Shown piece by piece: positions 2,450-30,819 of a stretch of 35,710 bases of DNA. This DNA is from Erysipelotrichaceae bacterium. GTDB taxonomy: Bacteria; Bacillota_I; Bacilli_A; Erysipelotrichales; Erysipelotrichaceae. Both the position numbers and the translations under genes were made by a program. Within the stretch, counting starts at the first letter, position 1, and every line of letters begins with the position of its first letter. Below the pieces are notes generated by a model, which was given only the letters and a program-made list of their open reading frames with translations, searched no databases and had not been told where the DNA came from. The DNA is taken from NCBI GenBank assembly GCA_021209625.1, contig JAJOHZ010000029.1, positions 1 through 35,710 on the forward strand, read 5' to 3'.

Positions 2450-4060
2450 ATGTTGAAAAGAATTGTATTAAGTGGAGTGGTTGTCATGCTTTTGTTTGGG
2501 TGTGTTAATCAACCCACAGAAGAAGAACCACAAGATTACACCGTCGATGAACTGCGTGAACTCATCAAAGACTACAATGCCCAAAACTTCTTAGAAGAAG
2601 TATCGGTGGCCTACAATATTTTTCCTATTGCCTATGCGGATGGTAATGGAGATAATCATGGTGATTTTAGAGGCATCATTGATAAGTTGGATTATCTTAA
2701 TGATGGTGATCCAACCACCACCACAGACTTAGGTATAACTGCGATTTGGTTTAATCCAATTCATCCTTCCAATACGTACCATAAATACGATGTGTTGGAT
2801 TACTATGCGGTAGATCCTAAGTTTGGAACCATGGAAGATTTTAAGGAACTTGTCACGAAAGCCAATGAGCGTGGTATTAAGATCATTATGGATATGGTGT
2901 TCAATCACAGTGCTTTTGACCATCCTTGGTTTAAAGCGGCCTTGAATGATCAAGCACCGTACAATGAGTTCTATCGTATTGAAAAAACCTTACCAGCGGA
3001 GCAATATCCTAACCGTACAGGATGGCATCAAACCTTTGGAATCAATTACTATGGTGGATTCTGGGATAAAATGCCAGAATTCAACCTAGATAATCCTTTA
3101 GTAAGAGAAGAATTCAAGAACATCATTACGTTTTGGTTAGAACTTGGCGTCAGTGGCATTCGCTATGATGCGGTGAAACATGGATATGATCGTAGAGAAT
3201 GGCCAGATGGGACACCAACGTTACAGAAGAATCTTCAGTTTTGGATGACCCTTCAAAAACATGCGAAAACTGTTAATCCTGATGCGTTTGTGGTGGCAGA
3301 GATGTGGGATACTAACCTCAACATGCAACCGTATGCGCAAGCGTATGATTCCTTGTTTAATTTTGACTTTGGAGACATGGTCATCAGTGCACTCAATTCA
3401 GGTTCGGCTTCCAATTTTATGGCCACTCAAGTGAAGAACTTGGAGGGATTACGAAGTCGTAATCCTAACTATGTGGATGCGCCTTTCCTAAAGAACCATG
3501 ATCAACCTCGTATCTTTAATGAACTTGGTTTTGATTGGGATAAAATGCGTTTAGCTTCTGTTTTCCTTCTTACTCAAGAAGGGGTTCCTTTCATTTACTA
3601 TGGTGAAGAACTTGGTATGAGAGGCATTAAACCAGATGAGCGAATCCGTGAGCCAATGCGTTGGAACAACTCCATTTCTTCTGAAGTGGCGTATTGGACA
3701 CAGTGGGAATACAATTGGGATACCCCAACGGTTGAAGATCAAGATCAAGATCCTAACAGTCTACTCAATCATTATCGTCGTTTAATCAACTTAAGACACA
3801 ACTCCAGTGCGCTTCGTCATGGAAGCACTGAAGTGTTCAGTGTCTTTAACTCCTCACTTGTGGCATATACCCGCACCAGTGACGATGAGCAAATGGTAGT
3901 GTTAGTTAACGTCTATAATGGTCCTGTCAGTGGAGAAGACCGTGAAGGTCGTTTAAGTAACATTGACATCGTTTCTTCTTATGGAGACTTTACCTACAAT
4001 GATGATGGTACCTTTAGACTCGGTGCACGTGGTTATGTGATTGGACGTGTTAAGCCATGA
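2450..4060 (+). CDS. Surface lipoprotein GH13 alpha-amylase/neopullulanase-like enzyme
   Basis: 536 residues with a lipoprotein signal: basic start MLKR, hydrophobic core and lipobox LLFGC with Cys18 as the predicted lipidation site, then an acidic linker. The GH13 barrel follows from about residue 50. The nucleophile is Asp240 (GIRYDAVKH), the acid/base Glu284 (VVAEMWD) and the third carboxylate Asp351 (LKNHDQPR); region I has the normal FNHSAFDH. It should cut starch or glycogen-like alpha-glucan at the outer face of the membrane, giving oligosaccharides for the binding protein encoded upstream. The start follows AAGGAGG. The stop overlaps the next gene by four bases (ATGA), so the regulator is translationally coupled. 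Confidence 0.9.
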   Translation: MLKRIVLSGVVVMLLFGCVNQPTEEEPQDYTVDELRELIKDYNAQNFLEEVSVAYNIFPIAYADGNGDNHGDFRGIIDKLDYLNDGDPTTTTDLGITAIWFNPIHPSNTYHKYDVLDYYAVDPKFGTMEDFKELVTKANERGIKIIMDMVFNHSAFDHPWFKAALNDQAPYNEFYRIEKTLPAEQYPNRTGWHQTFGINYYGGFWDKMPEFNLDNPLVREEFKNIITFWLELGVSGIRYDAVKHGYDRREWPDGTPTLQKNLQFWMTLQKHAKTVNPDAFVVAEMWDTNLNMQPYAQAYDSLFNFDFGDMVISALNSGSASNFMATQVKNLEGLRSRNPNYVDAPFLKNHDQPRIFNELGFDWDKMRLASVFLLTQEGVPFIYYGEELGMRGIKPDERIREPMRWNNSISSEVAYWTQWEYNWDTPTVEDQDQDPNSLLNHYRRLINLRHNSSALRHGSTEVFSVFNSSLVAYTRTSDDEQMVVLVNVYNGPVSGEDREGRLSNIDIVSSYGDFTYNDDGTFRLGARGYVIGRVKP

Positions 4061-4617
4061 TGTGCGCTTGGGTGAGTTCTCCTCATTCTCATCACTTGGA
4101 TGAGATGATCAAAGCGACATACACCCTCTTTGATGAGGATGTGTGTGATCGTTTGGATGCTCATCATTTGTGTGTGATTGCGGACATCAGTGCACTCGAT
4201 TTACTCACTTCCTTGTTTGCGACCTTACAAAGCCAAGGATTACATTTAAGGATGGTTATTGGATATGCTTATGATGCAGTGCTGAAGGCAGGGGTCATGA
4301 GTGCAGGGGAAGTGTATGACCATCAATGGGTGCATTTGTATCAGTTGTTTCTACATGAACTTAAGCATTCACAACATCATCTTATTGATGCTTTAAAGCT
4401 AAAGATGGAAGCCTTGGATCATGATGATCGTTTAACTTTGAAGACGTATCTGGATTATCATGGCAATGCGATACTGGCGTCTGATGCTTTGTATGTGCAT
4501 CGTAATACCTTCAATTATCGTTTGAATAAAGCCATTGAACACAGTGGTATTGATGTGAGGATTCATCCTTATGGACTCCTAATAACCTTATACTTTGCTT
4601 ATGATCAACTAAGATAA
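4057..4617 (+). CDS. PucR/CdaR-type helix-turn-helix regulator, short form
   Basis: 186 residues. The last ~65 residues (LTLKTYLDYHGNAILASDAL then YVHRNTFNYRLNKAIEHSG) match the C-terminal HTH domain of PucR/CdaR regulators, in which a carbohydrate-diacid or purine-regulator DNA-binding helix carries the HRNT-x-Y-RL signature. The first ~110 residues are a small alpha/beta region rich in His and Asp that I cannot assign, much shorter than the usual sensor domains. The gene overlaps the amylase lipoprotein by four bases (a second ATG at 4060 is equally possible) and is closed by a strong terminator. Context suggests it is the local regulator of alpha-glucan use, possibly acting at the 17-bp palindrome at 4635. 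The ligand is unknown. Confidence 0.75.
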   Translation: MMCAWVSSPHSHHLDEMIKATYTLFDEDVCDRLDAHHLCVIADISALDLLTSLFATLQSQGLHLRMVIGYAYDAVLKAGVMSAGEVYDHQWVHLYQLFLHELKHSQHHLIDALKLKMEALDHDDRLTLKTYLDYHGNAILASDALYVHRNTFNYRLNKAIEHSGIDVRIHPYGLLITLYFAYDQLR

Positions 4618-4698: not shown

Positions 4699-5793
4699 AT
4701 GGCAAATCTATCATTAAAGAATATCAATAAGATCTACGACAACAACGTCCAAGCGGTGTTTGATTTCAATCTTGAAATCAGTGATAAAGAGTTTATCGTT
4801 TTAGTTGGTCCATCAGGATGTGGTAAATCCACAACACTTCGTATGGTGGCTGGTCTTGAAGAAATTACCAGTGGAGATTTAGTGATTGATGGCAAACGCA
4901 TGAACAACGTTCAGCCTAAAGATCGTGATATCGCAATGGTGTTCCAATCCTATGCGCTTTATCCACACATGTCTGTGTATGACAACATGGCCTTTGGGTT
5001 AAAACTTCGTAAAATGCCTAAACAAGAAATCGACAAACGCGTTAAAGATGCTGCGAAGATTCTTGAAATTGAAAACTATTTGGATCGTAAACCAAAAGCA
5101 TTATCTGGGGGTCAACGTCAACGTGTTGCGTTAGGTCGTGCAATTGTTCGTAATGCGAAAGTGTTCCTCATGGATGAGCCTTTATCCAACCTTGATGCGA
5201 AACTACGCGTCAACATGCGTTCTGAAATCATTAAACTTCATGAGCGCATTGGTGCAACCACCATTTACGTTACCCATGACCAAACTGAAGCGATGACCAT
5301 GGCGGATCGTATCGTCATCATGAAAGATGGCTATATCCAACAAATTGGGTCACCAAAAGAAGTGTACAATAAACCAGTTAACATGTTTGTGGCTAATTTC
5401 ATTGGTGCTCCAGCTATGAACTTCATTCACGGTGTCTACAAACAAGGTCGTTTTGAAGTCAATGGCAAATCCTTTGGGGTGCCAGAGATGTATCATTCAG
5501 ATCTTAAATCCTATGATGGTAAAGAAGTGGTCTTAGGCATTCGTCCTGAAGACATTCATTACGAAGGCATCGTAGCTCAAACCTTCCCAGAAACACCATT
5601 TAACTTTGAAGTTGAAGTGGCGGAACTTCTTGGTCATGAATTCATTCTTCATGGACAGTTTGCAGGTCAAAAGATTTTAGCTAAGGTTTCAGCACGTGTT
5701 GATGTGAAAGCTCATACCGTTATCCCTCTTGCGATGGAAATGACTAAGCTTCATTTCTTCGACAAAGAAACATCTTGGGTTATCACTAAATAA
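4699..5793 (+). CDS. msmK: MsmK/UgpC-type sugar ABC transporter ATPase
   Basis: 364 residues of the shared carbohydrate-uptake ATPase family. Walker A is GPSGCGKST (about residues 38-46), the Q-loop is MVFQSYALYPHMSVYDN, the signature is LSGGQRQR, Walker B is VFLMDEPLSNLDAKLR and the switch His is in YVTHDQTEAM. The C-terminal ~120 residues form the regulatory OB-like (TOBE) domain with the family's GIRPEDI motif. It hydrolyses ATP to drive CUT1-type import, here presumably maltodextrin delivered by the binding protein at the left end. RBS AAAGGAG. It has its own promoter with a cre-like box, which fits an ATPase shared among several transporters. It overlaps the next GH13 gene by one base (TAATG). 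Confidence 0.93.
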   Translation: MANLSLKNINKIYDNNVQAVFDFNLEISDKEFIVLVGPSGCGKSTTLRMVAGLEEITSGDLVIDGKRMNNVQPKDRDIAMVFQSYALYPHMSVYDNMAFGLKLRKMPKQEIDKRVKDAAKILEIENYLDRKPKALSGGQRQRVALGRAIVRNAKVFLMDEPLSNLDAKLRVNMRSEIIKLHERIGATTIYVTHDQTEAMTMADRIVIMKDGYIQQIGSPKEVYNKPVNMFVANFIGAPAMNFIHGVYKQGRFEVNGKSFGVPEMYHSDLKSYDGKEVVLGIRPEDIHYEGIVAQTFPETPFNFEVEVAELLGHEFILHGQFAGQKILAKVSARVDVKAHTVIPLAMEMTKLHFFDKETSWVITK

Positions 5794-7082
5794 TGGCAGT
5801 CGAAACAAAGAAATCACTTTCACATCAAACGATTTATCAAGTTTATCCTCGTAACTACAGTCAAGAGGGCACTTTTCATGGCGTGACTCAAGACTTAGAA
5901 CGAATCGCCTCCTTAGGGGTGGATATCGTCTACTTACTACCAATTCATCCGATTGGGGTGGTGGCGCGTAAAGGAGATTTAGGAAGTCCTTATTCCATTC
6001 AAGATTTCCGTAAGGTGAATCCTGAATTAGGAACAAAAGATGATTTGAAAGTGCTCATTGATAAGGCTCACTCCTTAGGACTCAAAGTCATGATGGACAT
6101 TGTGTTTAATCATACGTCCCGTGACAATCCTTGGATGAAACAATATCCTGATTATTACTATTATCGTGATGGTCAGTTTGCGAACAAAGTCGGAGACTGG
6201 TCAGACATCTGTGATCTTAACTACAACTACAAACCACTTTGGGAAGAGATGATTGACATTCTCAAAGGTTGGGCTGTCTTTGGTTTTGATGGATTCCGTT
6301 GTGATGTCGCTCCTTTCGTACCGATTGAGTTTTGGAAAGACGCTCGTCGTGTGATCAATGGACTCAAGCCAGATTTCATTTGGTTTTCTGAATCTGTTCA
6401 TCGCTCCTTTCTTAAAGTCATGAGAGATGAAGGATTCTTATGTCACAGTGATGCGGAGATGTATCAAGTGTTTGATGTCTTGTATGATTACGACATCATT
6501 CATGAAGCAGAAGCGTATTGGGAAGGTAAGAAACCATTAAGTGCATTCATTGAACAACTTAATCTTCAAGAAGTCATTTATCCAGCGAATTATCTTAAAG
6601 CCCGTGCTTACGAAAATCATGATGTCCCTCGACTCATGAAACGAACTGGCAGTGTGGAAAAGACAAAAAACTGGGTTGCGGCCATCATGACTTTAAAAGG
6701 TATGGGATTTCTCTTTAATGGGATTGAAACCTTAACAGACATCTTGCCTAACCTCTTTGATAAAGATCCTATTCCTTGGCATCAAACAAATGATGAGTGG
6801 GTAAAAGAGTTAACCCGCCTCATTGAGCTAAAGAAACGCCCCATTTTTTCAGAATACACCACCTATGTCTTAGAAGACACAGGGCTAGATATCTTCCACA
6901 TCACGTATAAGAAAGATCGTGAAGTCTTAGTTGCGTTATGCAATGTCGGTCAAGTTCAAGATGATGTGAAGGTGGATTTGAATGATGGTGAATATGCTAA
7001 TGAATTTGATGGTAGTCTTGTGAAGGTATCCTCTGGAAGAGTACGATTATCATCTAAACCTATTATTATTCATAAGATGTAA
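5793..7082 (+). CDS. Cytoplasmic GH13 alpha-amylase-family glycosidase
   Basis: 429 residues, compact for GH13. The barrel starts at TIYQVYPRNYS. Region I is DIVFNHTSRDNPW, the nucleophile is Asp171 in GFRCDVAPF, the acid/base Glu200 in WFSES and the third carboxylate Asp277 in ENHDVPR. There is no signal peptide, so it should act on imported maltodextrin. The small size, the short B domain and the absence of the 100-residue C-terminal extension of alpha-glucosidases make the exact specificity (maltogenic or maltodextrin-degrading) uncertain. Translation is coupled to the ATPase gene by a TAATG overlap. A long terminator hairpin follows. Confidence 0.87.
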   Translation: MAVETKKSLSHQTIYQVYPRNYSQEGTFHGVTQDLERIASLGVDIVYLLPIHPIGVVARKGDLGSPYSIQDFRKVNPELGTKDDLKVLIDKAHSLGLKVMMDIVFNHTSRDNPWMKQYPDYYYYRDGQFANKVGDWSDICDLNYNYKPLWEEMIDILKGWAVFGFDGFRCDVAPFVPIEFWKDARRVINGLKPDFIWFSESVHRSFLKVMRDEGFLCHSDAEMYQVFDVLYDYDIIHEAEAYWEGKKPLSAFIEQLNLQEVIYPANYLKARAYENHDVPRLMKRTGSVEKTKNWVAAIMTLKGMGFLFNGIETLTDILPNLFDKDPIPWHQTNDEWVKELTRLIELKKRPIFSEYTTYVLEDTGLDIFHITYKKDREVLVALCNVGQVQDDVKVDLNDGEYANEFDGSLVKVSSGRVRLSSKPIIIHKM

Positions 7083-7085
7083 CAT

Positions 7086-7122
7086 AAAAGGTTGGTTCCC
7101 TTGTTGGAACCAACCTTTTTTT
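7086..7122. terminator. Strong bidirectional terminator between convergent genes
   Basis: A 14-bp stem (AAAAGGTTGGTTCC with GGAACCAACCTTTT) around CTTGTT ends in a T run on the plus strand and has an A run on its 5' side, so it can end transcripts from both the GH13 gene and the convergent maltosyltransferase operon. Confidence 0.9.
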
Positions 7123-7672
7123 ATCTTAAGTATTGTTCTCTTTCAAACCGTTTCATGATGGAAGAAAAGAGATGATATTCATATCGATAAGACAAATGAT
7201 TAAGGTTGCGAGCCCGTGCTCGTATATGCCTCAAATCCAAAATAAGTTGTTTCACTAAGCTTTTACCCTGTAGTGCTAATCGTTTTGATGCTTTCTCAAA
7301 ATCTTCTAAACGATTTTCTTCTAAGAGTTCATGGGTGAGTGTGTTACGCTCAATGACCCAACCTTTAATGGTTTGATACAAGGTGATATCACACTCTTGA
7401 AATAAAACGTGGTTATGTTGTATGGCTTTGACGAGTGTTTCTAACTCTTTGAATAAACCAAAATGCTCGGGATCTTTCACAAACCGCAGTTGTTTCACTT
7501 CAGGAACCACACTCAGGATCTTATAAACACACTCTTCAATCACATTGTATTCAATGATAATGGCTGAGCCATAGTCATCTTCCTTCAGCTGGGTGTTAAT
7601 GTGTTTGACTGCATTGGCTAAGGTGAGTATGGACTTGAGTTGTTGCTCCAAAGCACGTTGTGTTGCATCCAT
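7121..7672 (-). CDS. Unassigned all-helical protein with HEPN-like RNxxxH motif
   Basis: 183 residues with no signal peptide or membrane segment, predicted almost entirely helical. I do not recognise the family by full-length similarity. Residues 109-114 read RNTLTH, preceded by GWVIE and followed by EL. This is the R-N-x3-H arrangement typical of HEPN-domain nucleases and HEPN-like helical bundles, and the following 45 residues fit another amphipathic helix pair. The start ATG lies three bases after the stop of the maltosyltransferase gene, so the two are certainly cotranscribed. No MNT nucleotidyltransferase partner is adjacent, so a toxin-antitoxin role is not supported. A regulatory or scaffold role tied to glycogen/maltodextrin metabolism is possible. 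The function is open. Confidence 0.6.
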   Translation of the reverse strand: MDATQRALEQQLKSILTLANAVKHINTQLKEDDYGSAIIIEYNVIEECVYKILSVVPEVKQLRFVKDPEHFGLFKELETLVKAIQHNHVLFQECDITLYQTIKGWVIERNTLTHELLEENRLEDFEKASKRLALQGKSLVKQLILDLRHIRARARNLNHLSYRYEYHLFSSIMKRFEREQYLR

Positions 7673-7675
7673 AGT

Positions 7676-9775
7676 TTAAAGAATCTCTAGTTCAAAACAA
7701 ACCACTTCAGCTGGAGCACAATGAATCATGAGCACTTTATGCTCATTCACATGGGCATGTAGATGAGGGTTGTTTTCACTTGAGAATGCTAAGTTACAAC
7801 GCACGTGTTGTCCAAAGAATTCTCTTGGTAATGAATCCAGTTTCACAGTGTGAGTTTGATGGTTGTAGACATCTGTATTAACCACCGCAATGAGGGCTTT
7901 CTTACCACTCACAAATCCCATGCCTGCGGCAGGATCCCAAGGAGCTGAGAAGCCTAATGGATAAGTATGTTCTTTAGAAATGATTGAATCAACGTACTGT
8001 TTTCTTAAAGCCGTGGCTTTCTCAAGTAAGTTTGGAATCACGAAACGTTGTTTATGATTCATATGGAAAGCGTACTTATCAAACAAGGCTAATTTACCAT
8101 AGTATGGATCATCTTCACTGAGTTGATAAGCTTCATCAGGACGACAATCCAACCCTGTATTCATTGGTTGACGTTCAAACACTTCTTGTCCACTGTTAAG
8201 GAAAGGAATGGTATTAGGAATAAACAGAGAGAACAGCGTAATCATCTTAGCCAGTTTCTCGCCACCTTCACGGGCAGCCAAGCGAGGGGTATCATGCGTT
8301 TCTCCAACCGCAAAGAGTGGAGATTCCATGTTCATGGAAGAATACACAAAGTTATTGAAGAAACCTTGAGCTACACGTGGAAGACGGATGAATCCATCTC
8401 CAATGATCATATTGTAGCCTTTCTCCATGGAGACTTTGGCATTCTCCACATCCAATTCTTCCGCAATGAAACAGAAGTTAGGATCAATCTCACGTGCTTT
8501 GGATAAAATCATGGAAACCAAATCTTCAGGTAAAGCATGCCCCATGTCAATGCGTGCTCCATCAATACCAAAGTTTCTTTGGAAGAAAGGAATAATGTCT
8601 GTGAGTGTATCCCATAACGGTTGATTCACCACACTGCCTGGATTATACGAAGATTTCGCGACATCAAAGAGAATGTATGGTTCCACATGACCAATCTTCT
8701 CAAGGAAAGGTTGAGCATTTAAAGGATGGTCTAAAAACAATCTAAAGAAGGTGACATCACTCCATGCGGGTTGAGGATCATTGATTCCATCTGAGAAAGC
8801 AGGGGCAATGGTCAATCCAAACATGTCTTGAACCAAGTCTAATATCTCAACGGTTCCCTTCGCTTCATGCCACTTGGCAACCACTTTATCCCATTTCTTA
8901 GGATCAATGGATTGAGGGTTGGGTTTAAACTTCTTAATATGCGCAATGACTTCCTCGCTCTTATACACATCTTCTAAGTAAATCGCCTTAGCAGGAAGCA
9001 CACTTTCAAGTGTAGGCACATGTGGTGGTTTATAATCGGATAAATCTTCATGATTAATCCAATAGAACCATTCAGGATGATCAACAATCAAGTCTGAATT
9101 CACGGAGTTGGTTCGTGGAATAATATCAATGATGACTTTCATGTCTAAGCGATGACACGCTTCCACAAACGCCTTAAACTCATCTTCAACGTTCAAGGCA
9201 TCACCAGTCATTGGGTCTTTTAATCCTTCATCAAGTTTAAAGAAGTTGGATACCCCATAAGGAGATCCTAACTCCCCTTTTTTATCTTTAAGTGAGTATT
9301 TTGAAATAGGAAGCATGTACACCACATCAATCCCCATTTTCTTAAGCAATGGCAGAATCGCAATGGCTTTCACAAAAGTGCCTGTTTCTTTTAATCCATA
9401 CAAGTTTTCGTTCTCTAAATGACCTGAGCGATCATGATCATAACTTGCGGAAGAGCGAATCATCATGGAGTAAGCATAGCTTTGTCTAATCCATGCACCA
9501 TCGCTGAGTCCTTTAGGAAGCTTTTTTGGTTGTCCTAAGAAATAGGAGGTATGATAGTCCACTTTTGAAGATCCTTGTTTGAGGATCACGTTGTTGATGA
9601 TTTCCTTATAAAACTGAAATGGATTAACAATCACATTGCCATCGTTGACATTGATTTTGGAATCCACACAGACAGCTTCATGATCCCATAAATCTGGAAT
9701 CGCATAATTGAATACGGTTTTATGTTTTTTTTCTTGAGCAGCTAAAGCTGCAGAGACTTTCTTTAAATAACTCAT
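7676..9775 (-). CDS. GH13 maltosyltransferase, Thermotoga MTase type
   Basis: 699 residues. The layout and several long motifs resemble the Thermotoga alpha-1,4-glucan maltosyltransferase as I recall it: IIPRTNSVNSDLI in place of the usual region I, HPEWFYWI, FSDGINDPQPAWSDVTF, the nucleophile region GIDGARIDMGHALP (Asp410), the acid/base region FIAEELD (Glu439 or Glu440) and region IV GETHDTPR (Asp495). That enzyme moves maltosyl units between maltodextrins, and I recall it also accepting phosphate to give maltose-1-phosphate. No signal peptide is present, so it should act in the cytoplasm on imported or stored glucan. Transcription opposes the other GH13 genes. RBS GAAAGGGAA precedes the ATG. 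The small helical protein is encoded three bases downstream. Confidence 0.85.
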   Translation of the reverse strand: MSYLKKVSAALAAQEKKHKTVFNYAIPDLWDHEAVCVDSKINVNDGNVIVNPFQFYKEIINNVILKQGSSKVDYHTSYFLGQPKKLPKGLSDGAWIRQSYAYSMMIRSSASYDHDRSGHLENENLYGLKETGTFVKAIAILPLLKKMGIDVVYMLPISKYSLKDKKGELGSPYGVSNFFKLDEGLKDPMTGDALNVEDEFKAFVEACHRLDMKVIIDIIPRTNSVNSDLIVDHPEWFYWINHEDLSDYKPPHVPTLESVLPAKAIYLEDVYKSEEVIAHIKKFKPNPQSIDPKKWDKVVAKWHEAKGTVEILDLVQDMFGLTIAPAFSDGINDPQPAWSDVTFFRLFLDHPLNAQPFLEKIGHVEPYILFDVAKSSYNPGSVVNQPLWDTLTDIIPFFQRNFGIDGARIDMGHALPEDLVSMILSKAREIDPNFCFIAEELDVENAKVSMEKGYNMIIGDGFIRLPRVAQGFFNNFVYSSMNMESPLFAVGETHDTPRLAAREGGEKLAKMITLFSLFIPNTIPFLNSGQEVFERQPMNTGLDCRPDEAYQLSEDDPYYGKLALFDKYAFHMNHKQRFVIPNLLEKATALRKQYVDSIISKEHTYPLGFSAPWDPAAGMGFVSGKKALIAVVNTDVYNHQTHTVKLDSLPREFFGQHVRCNLAFSSENNPHLHAHVNEHKVLMIHCAPAEVVCFELEIL

Positions 9776-9837
9776 AGTTCATTCCCTTTCGTCTCTATTC
9801 TATCACATCTAGCTCATTTCTAAGTCTTTGAATTCAT

Positions 9838-9870
9838 GAAAAAAGGATATCTCAATGAAGATATCCTTTG
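9838..9870 (-). terminator. Terminator of the oxidoreductase-PTS IIA operon
   Basis: Read on the minus strand, AAAGGATATCT pairs with AGATATCCTTT around a six-base loop and is followed by a run of T, twelve bases past the IIA stop. Confidence 0.85.
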
Positions 9871-30420: not shown

Positions 30421-30819
30421 TTAATACACCCATGTATAAGGATCTTCATTTCCATCATTATCGGATATCATCACTTCCACTGTGATGGAGTTAATGGTAG
30501 TCCAATCATTGGTGGCATTGTTTACGACGATAGAAACAACAGTCTGTTCTTGTTCTTCATAGTATTCAATGATTGGGTCAATGATATTCTCTTTTAGATT
30601 TGATAGGTCACTTTCACTCCAAAAGATTCTTCCTTGGATGTAGATTTGAGGTAATACAAGTCCTTCAGGAAAAGGATTCACAGGACATTCTTCACATACT
30701 TCACATTCATCACAGATTGGACATTCTTCAACCTCATCACAAGGTTCTGGTTGTGTGGGAGCACATGCGCTTAGTAATAAACTCATTATCGCAATGATAA
30801 GCATTGAATGTGATTTCAT
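30421..30819 (-). CDS. Small Cys/Glu-rich lipoprotein
   Basis: 132 residues with a lipoprotein signal (MKSHSMLIIAIMSLLLSAC, lipobox LLSAC, Cys19). Directly after it comes a cluster of acidic residues and regularly spaced cysteines (PCDEVEECPICDECEVCEEC) in which CxxC-like pairs recur every three to six residues, then a ~75-residue domain without cysteine that looks like a small mixed alpha/beta fold ending in NEDPYTWVY. The cluster could bind metal or form disulfides outside the membrane. I do not recognise the family. The start ATG follows AAAGGAGGCCC. Confidence 0.7.
   Translation of the reverse strand: MKSHSMLIIAIMSLLLSACAPTQPEPCDEVEECPICDECEVCEECPVNPFPEGLVLPQIYIQGRIFWSESDLSNLKENIIDPIIEYYEEQEQTVVSIVVNNATNDWTTINSITVEVMISDNDGNEDPYTWVY

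Follow-up and report, generated by a model that had tools for sequence, protein, structure and literature searches.

A 183-residue protein encoded directly behind a maltosyltransferase (MTase) gene in this Erysipelotrichaceae genome probably adds a new member to the HEPN superfamily, in a place that is unusual but not unprecedented. The explanation that we consider best, and hold tentatively, is that it acts as a solo HEPN protein in the regulation of the maltodextrin/MTase operon, perhaps as an RNase; we present this as a lead and not as a demonstration. Both genes lie on the minus strand of the window, by which we mean the whole stretch of DNA analysed (35,710 nucleotides):

7121-7672, minus strand: small protein gene, probable solo HEPN (183 aa; ATG at 7670-7672; motif R109-N110-T-L-T-H114; E46 in helix 2)
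7331-7348, minus strand: codons for residues 109-114 (RNTLTH), which form the putative active site and are invariant in 3/3 full copies
7676-9775, minus strand: Thermotoga-type maltosyltransferase (GH13), first gene of the pair (699 aa; TAA at 7676-7678)

The 699-aa open reading frame is clearly a Thermotoga-type maltosyltransferase by sequence, as its homology to 1gju spans the catalytic length; a structure library search matched residues 23-600 to the maltodextrin glycosyltransferase of PDB entries 1gju/1gjw (E 1.9e-140). Three bases (7673-7675) separate its stop codon from the start of the small gene. This spacing, the type of the upstream enzyme and the presence of RNTLTH at residues 109-114 had all been reported in the earlier note, and they agree with the ORF coordinates, the sequence and the 1gju match. 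The small ORF is a real gene, since copies with 68-71% identity lie behind the MTase in two further genomes, and a fragment of 58 residues, cut by a contig end, was found in a third. Comparison of the three full copies gave pN values of 0.17-0.22 against pS values of 0.75-0.78, by which the gene is under purifying selection; it evolves faster than the MTase gene, for which pN is 0.075-0.087.

The survey of Anantharaman et al. 2013 (PMC3710099) describes the HEPN motif as Rx4-6H; it stands where helix 3 ends, and its Arg is followed by a polar residue, most commonly N, D or H. Many families also have an acidic residue in helix 2, typically within Ex3[KR], and inserts are frequent between helices 2 and 3. 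RNTLTH fits this motif, polar residue included. R109, N110 and H114, of which the earlier note proposed to check the Arg and the His, are invariant in an alignment of the three full copies, but this is a weak test because the copies are ~70% identical overall. E46, in predicted helix 2, is invariant in all four copies, the fragment included, and stands in an Ex4K context (E46-x4-K51), so that it departs from Ex3[KR]. A count of the pattern R[NDH]xxxH in 198 mechanical ORFs of at least 200 aa (75,262 residues) gave 16 occurrences, or 0.039 per 183 aa; this set came from part of the loci, some of them HEPN-bearing, and may contain spurious ORFs. By itself, the RNxxxH motif is weak sequence evidence for a HEPN domain.

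An AlphaFold model of the small protein (model 1, mean pLDDT 62) has helices at residues 3-28, 34-54 (with E46), 96-117 (with the motif near its end), 122-156 and 163-182, and short ones at 57-60 and 73-85. This fits the helix order of the HEPN four-helix up-down bundle with an insert between helices 2 and 3, and it places the motif near the end of helix 3. Using VIA-align, HEPN/HepT chains were found at ranks 1-5, 7, 10, 15 and 18 of 50 rows. The top five were 8yuf (Z 8.7), 6m6w (Z 8.4, rmsd 2.8 over 114), 8xdj, 7bxo and 1jog, at Z values in a range where helical bundles may share only a common arrangement; 1wty stood at rank 7, 7ae9 at rank 10 and a gp41 five-helix bundle at rank 6 (Z 8.0). 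Five of these nine HEPN rows are identified by title, and four (7bxo, 1jog, 1wty and 2q00) we take to be HEPN proteins. The helix order of a second model (pLDDT 51) is similar, and its structural match to HEPN is weaker: PA28 occupied ranks 1-5, and HEPN chains stood at ranks 6, 10, 19 and 36 of 50, the last being 1wty, again presumed to be HEPN. No Foldseek match in the PDB or BFVD reached E<=0.001.

In 7ae9 the motif reads RNRLVH, at 102-107 by PDB sequence count, and in the Shewanella HepT protein SO_3166 it reads RNIAVH, at 97-102; we take 6m6w to be SO_3166. The VIA-align end offsets are 10 and 17 for 6m6w and 6 and 9 for 7ae9, so R109 of the model could meet R97 and R102, respectively, a placement drawn from aligned end points in which entry numbering may differ from the sequence count. 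We consider it fairly likely, on moderate support, that the small protein has a HEPN fold. The HEPN-like fold proposed in the earlier note is thus favoured by the position of the motif, the helix order and the five best VIA-align rows, and weakened by the low pLDDT of both models and the lack of a library match at E<=0.001.

A rival explanation is some other all-helical protein, for example an adaptor or a protein-protein regulator, carrying RNxxxH by chance. The background frequency of the motif given above, the lack of a library match at E<=0.001 and the low confidence of both models fit this explanation, as do the presence of gp41-type bundles beside the HEPN rows of model 1 and the lead of PA28 in model 2. 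Against it, several features coincide: the motif is present and lies where helix 3 ends, helix 2 carries a Glu, an insert parts helices 2 and 3, and HEPN chains lead the rows of model 1. We regard this explanation as rather unlikely.

Profile searches of the small protein against Pfam, NCBIfam, PADLOC and PHROGs gave no match at E<=0.001, with a query profile that has only three similar sequences. The weaker matches were to phrog_13885, a phage family of 97 positions with no known function, over residues 94-138 in the motif region (E 0.0022; E 0.0054 for the L003 copy and none for the third copy); to a CfxA beta-lactamase model, with one copy (E 0.0046); to PADLOC PDC-S02, with the L003 copy only (E 0.015); and to the Pfam RnlA DBD domain, with residues 4-75 of the L002 copy (E 0.012, 16.4 bits versus a cut-off of 27; none with the other two copies). 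The end coordinates of this last match would place E46 near the helix-2 Glu of RnlA.

Comparison by hhalign of the small-protein profile with HepT (18 of 25 loci used, three having no ORF that fitted the motif pattern and four being dropped for length or shape), RnlA (E. coli and three of eight loci) and MtlR (six sequences) gave tiny probabilities over short or unrelated regions and is not convincing. In a first HepT profile comparison the score (7.45) was lower than the best of 60 shuffles (18.68). In a later comparison the observed score was reached by 6/100 column shuffles for HepT, 20/100 for RnlA and 1/100 for MtlR, the last of which lends no support because the alignment joined non-corresponding regions. 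A joint MAFFT alignment placed RNTLTH and E46 on the motif and Glu of RnlA and not on MtlR, neither of which is evidence alone.

Could the small protein be a HepT-type toxin that belongs to an MNT-HEPN pair, with the antitoxin encoded at another locus? The best structural rows of model 1 are indeed HepT-type. However, there was no PF01934 match and no PF18765 match in its own genome (60% complete), and its neighbours are GH13 enzymes. The Tyr of the HepT Rx4HxY motif is AMPylated; in SO_3166 it is Y104, and all three full copies of the small protein have Leu116 in its place. The spacing from the helix-2 Glu to the Arg also differs, being 63 residues in the small protein and 24-26 in 18/18 HepT sequences; it is 60-65 in 4/4 RnlA sequences, so by sequence spacing the small protein is nearer to RnlA than to HepT. 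We therefore consider an MNT-linked HepT very unlikely and largely refuted, with no MNT gene found among the neighbours or in the 60%-complete genome.

The MTase/small-gene pair has a convergent maltodextrin cluster on one side and a sorbitol-type PTS cluster on the other, and the features around it are as follows:

761-2440: GH13 enzyme of the convergent maltodextrin cluster
2450-4060: GH13 lipoprotein-like protein of the same cluster
4057-4617, plus strand: PucR-type HTH protein (186 aa, HTH C-terminal)
4699-5793: MalK-like ATPase of the same cluster
5793-7082, plus strand: GH13 alpha-amylase-like enzyme at the end of the cluster
7086-7119, no strand assigned: hairpin separating the small gene from the GH13 gene at 5793-7082 that converges on it; terminator-like when read on the plus strand
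9780-9802, minus strand: -10-like TAGAAT/TAAAAT and Shine-Dalgarno block GAAAGGGAATG before the MTase start, alike in three genomes
9842-9869, minus strand: hairpin with a T run, behind the upstream gene gutA (fold z -3.84; varied stem; not in the terminator-scan list)

The spacing from the MTase gene to the small gene is +3, +7, -4 and +6 nt in the four genomes, and because of this close spacing and the hairpins on both sides, the two genes probably form one two-gene transcript. The cotranscription claimed in the earlier note fits both observations, as an inference from sequence. The hairpin at 7086-7119 was listed for the plus strand only by the terminator scan (2 sites found, 2.0 expected in the region), and it probably ends the minus-strand transcript as well. 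Folded as the minus strand it has -21.9 kcal/mol (z -5.84), and the same place in relatives L062 and L063 holds hairpins followed by T-rich stretches. On the upstream side, the hairpin and T run after gutA suggest that the MTase and the putative HEPN gene may be a separate unit. The block at 9780-9802 is absent from the list of the consensus promoter scan.

Two other genes in the window deserve mention. The gene for the PucR-type HTH protein shares 4 nt with the GH13 gene before it and is followed by that of the MalK-like ATPase; its product, 62-69% identical between genomes, had the highest pN of five compared genes in two of three pairs and may be a DNA-binding regulator of the maltodextrin cluster. 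A gene at 30421-30819 on the minus strand encodes a small protein, probably a lipoprotein, that has a stretch rich in Cys and Glu, CDEVEECPICDECEVCEECP, and matched nothing in Pfam.

We found the small protein in four of the six genomes of its genus and in 4/272 genomes of Erysipelotrichaceae, all four being from this one genus, and the MTase in 41/272. All four MTase-bearing genomes of the genus have the pair, and the two members that lack the small protein (83% and 65% complete) had no MTase match either; in the family's 37 remaining genomes with an MTase, the small protein was not found. Conservation of the pair, which had been suggested as a check, thus holds throughout the MTase-bearing members of the genus and was not seen in the rest of the family. 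Among 30 loci of the family inspected behind the MTase, the gene is present in the four from the genus, while all 26 from outside it have other genes downstream. Close behind the MTase, L040 and L061 carry a gene on the same strand (285 and 243 aa, respectively) that is unlike the small protein, L055 has a 92-aa ORF that overlaps an opposite-strand frame, and the flank at L039 spans only 318 nt. In a sister genus (L037, L038, L041 and L042), a gene for a probable lipoprotein of 343-348 aa lies behind the MTase on the opposite strand.

A general MTase-HEPN linkage is rejected for Erysipelotrichaceae, with the small protein in 4/41 MTase-bearing genomes, because MTase genes occur elsewhere in the family without it. 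When 315 genomes of the order were searched with a profile, the matches outside the genus were only partial and weak (24 genomes, best E 0.0065). A search of genome contigs matched the same three relatives only (Erysipelothrix sp., Erysipelotrichia and Erysipelotrichaceae MAG records), and no homologues were found in the viral contigs, phages and plasmids searched.

This narrow distribution bears on the possibility that a selfish or defence HEPN RNase of toxin-like character arrived between the two converging sugar genes and, having no part in sugar metabolism, simply rides on the MTase promoter. A range of one genus, with no copy beside the MTase in the rest of the family, is consistent with such an arrival. 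In L062, a Gp49-like (PF05973) and HTH_3 pair, toxin-antitoxin-like and mobile-like, lies at 8673-9318 on the minus strand, in the same intergenic spot, with the HEPN gene on one side and the converging GH13 gene on the other; it is absent from that spot in the window and in L063. On the other hand, toxin and defence modules tend to be patchy, while the small protein is kept at 67-71% identity beside the MTase in all four MTase-bearing genomes of the genus. The annotated neighbours include no antitoxin-like or MNT gene, and the lack of a PADLOC match at E<=0.001 and of homologues in mobile elements also argues against this origin. In favour of it, PMC3710099 has motif-bearing HEPN domains as predicted RNases, many of them in toxin or defence systems. 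We judge a toxin-like stowaway to be an unlikely explanation here.

We therefore return to a solo HEPN regulator, which we favour because MtlR is the best analogue and the mtlD/mtlR arrangement is much like that of the MTase and the small gene. The small protein would be a divergent, genus-restricted solo HEPN protein, probably translated from a two-gene message with the MTase, and would most likely regulate the maltodextrin/MTase operon. A HEPN dimer with an RNxxxH site would bind RNA, and perhaps cleave it, since the full site is kept; its target might be, for example, the message of its own operon, acted on as the sugar state changes. Its role would be analogous to that of MtlR, a HEPN repressor encoded directly after mtlD. 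The dimer, the RNase or RNA-binding activity and the target are putative. Of the regulatory or protective partnership envisaged in the earlier note, the regulatory half has a precedent in MtlR, while nothing was found in support of the protective half.

A more specific and improbable version would have the small protein as an active HEPN RNase, translationally coupled to the MTase and inhibited by the MTase or its glucan products, that cleaves maltodextrin-operon messages upon shortage. If true, this would be a HEPN switch wired into alpha-glucan metabolism, with a metabolic enzyme in the place of an antitoxin.

The literature searched held no report that joins HEPN with a maltosyltransferase, or with glycoside hydrolase, operon and glycogen, and, judged by titles, no work on HEPN with maltodextrin on the same subject; for HEPN, sugar operon, MtlR and RNA-binding together, PMC3710099 was the only match. 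HEPN proteins have been known mainly for their roles as toxins and defence RNases, with MtlR as a listed sugar-operon case. A second, unrelated-looking HEPN protein with a full RNxxxH site in a Gram-positive maltodextrin operon would, if true, suggest repeated recruitment of the superfamily to sugar-operon control, and it would offer a case for a direct test of RNase activity in a sugar-operon HEPN protein.

Among known systems, the Thermotoga maritima maltosyltransferase (1gju) is a clear homologue of the upstream gene product, in which we saw nothing notably different, whereas Thermotoga-type homologues elsewhere in Erysipelotrichaceae have no detected HEPN partner. HepT/DUF86 proteins (PF01934; Shewanella SO_3166, 6m6w) resemble the small protein in the RN-x3-H motif and provide the best structural rows of model 1; in SO_3166 the Arg, the His and the Asn after the Arg are described as needed for toxicity. 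The small protein differs from them in having no MNT partner found, no AMPylatable Tyr and no profile match, and in its longer stretch from the helix-2 Glu to the motif. The HEPN domain of RnlA/RNase LS (PF19034) is close in its Glu-Arg spacing, which is 60 in E. coli RnlA (E258-R318, where we take E258 to be an active-site residue) and 63 in the small protein. However, RnlA has 357 aa, further regions and an RnlB antitoxin; the small protein lacks a PF19034 match above the cut-off and this architecture, and the hhalign and HMMER comparisons were not significant.

MtlR (PF05068; reference structures 6kcr, from E. coli, 3brj and 3c8g) is the best working analogue by this comparison. PMC3710099 lists it among the HEPN families, places it mostly within mannitol operons, and describes it as a repressor without detectable promoter/operator interaction, whose mode of repression was unsettled in that survey. 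MtlR continues to be described as a transcriptional repressor in later work: that of Vibrio cholerae lowers mtlA mRNA and protein (PMC5845740), and that of E. coli binds HPr and responds to the sugar state through it (PMC6763467). The small protein differs in having no established sequence similarity to MtlR and no PF05068 match, a family matched in 0/195 genomes of the same phylum, and in belonging to an alpha-glucan rather than a mannitol operon, while E. coli MtlR binds HPr. It is alike in that MtlR is HEPN-listed, is similar in size (195 aa) and has its gene in a sugar operon, immediately behind that of a sugar enzyme, with E. coli mtlR starting on the last base of mtlD (one shared base).
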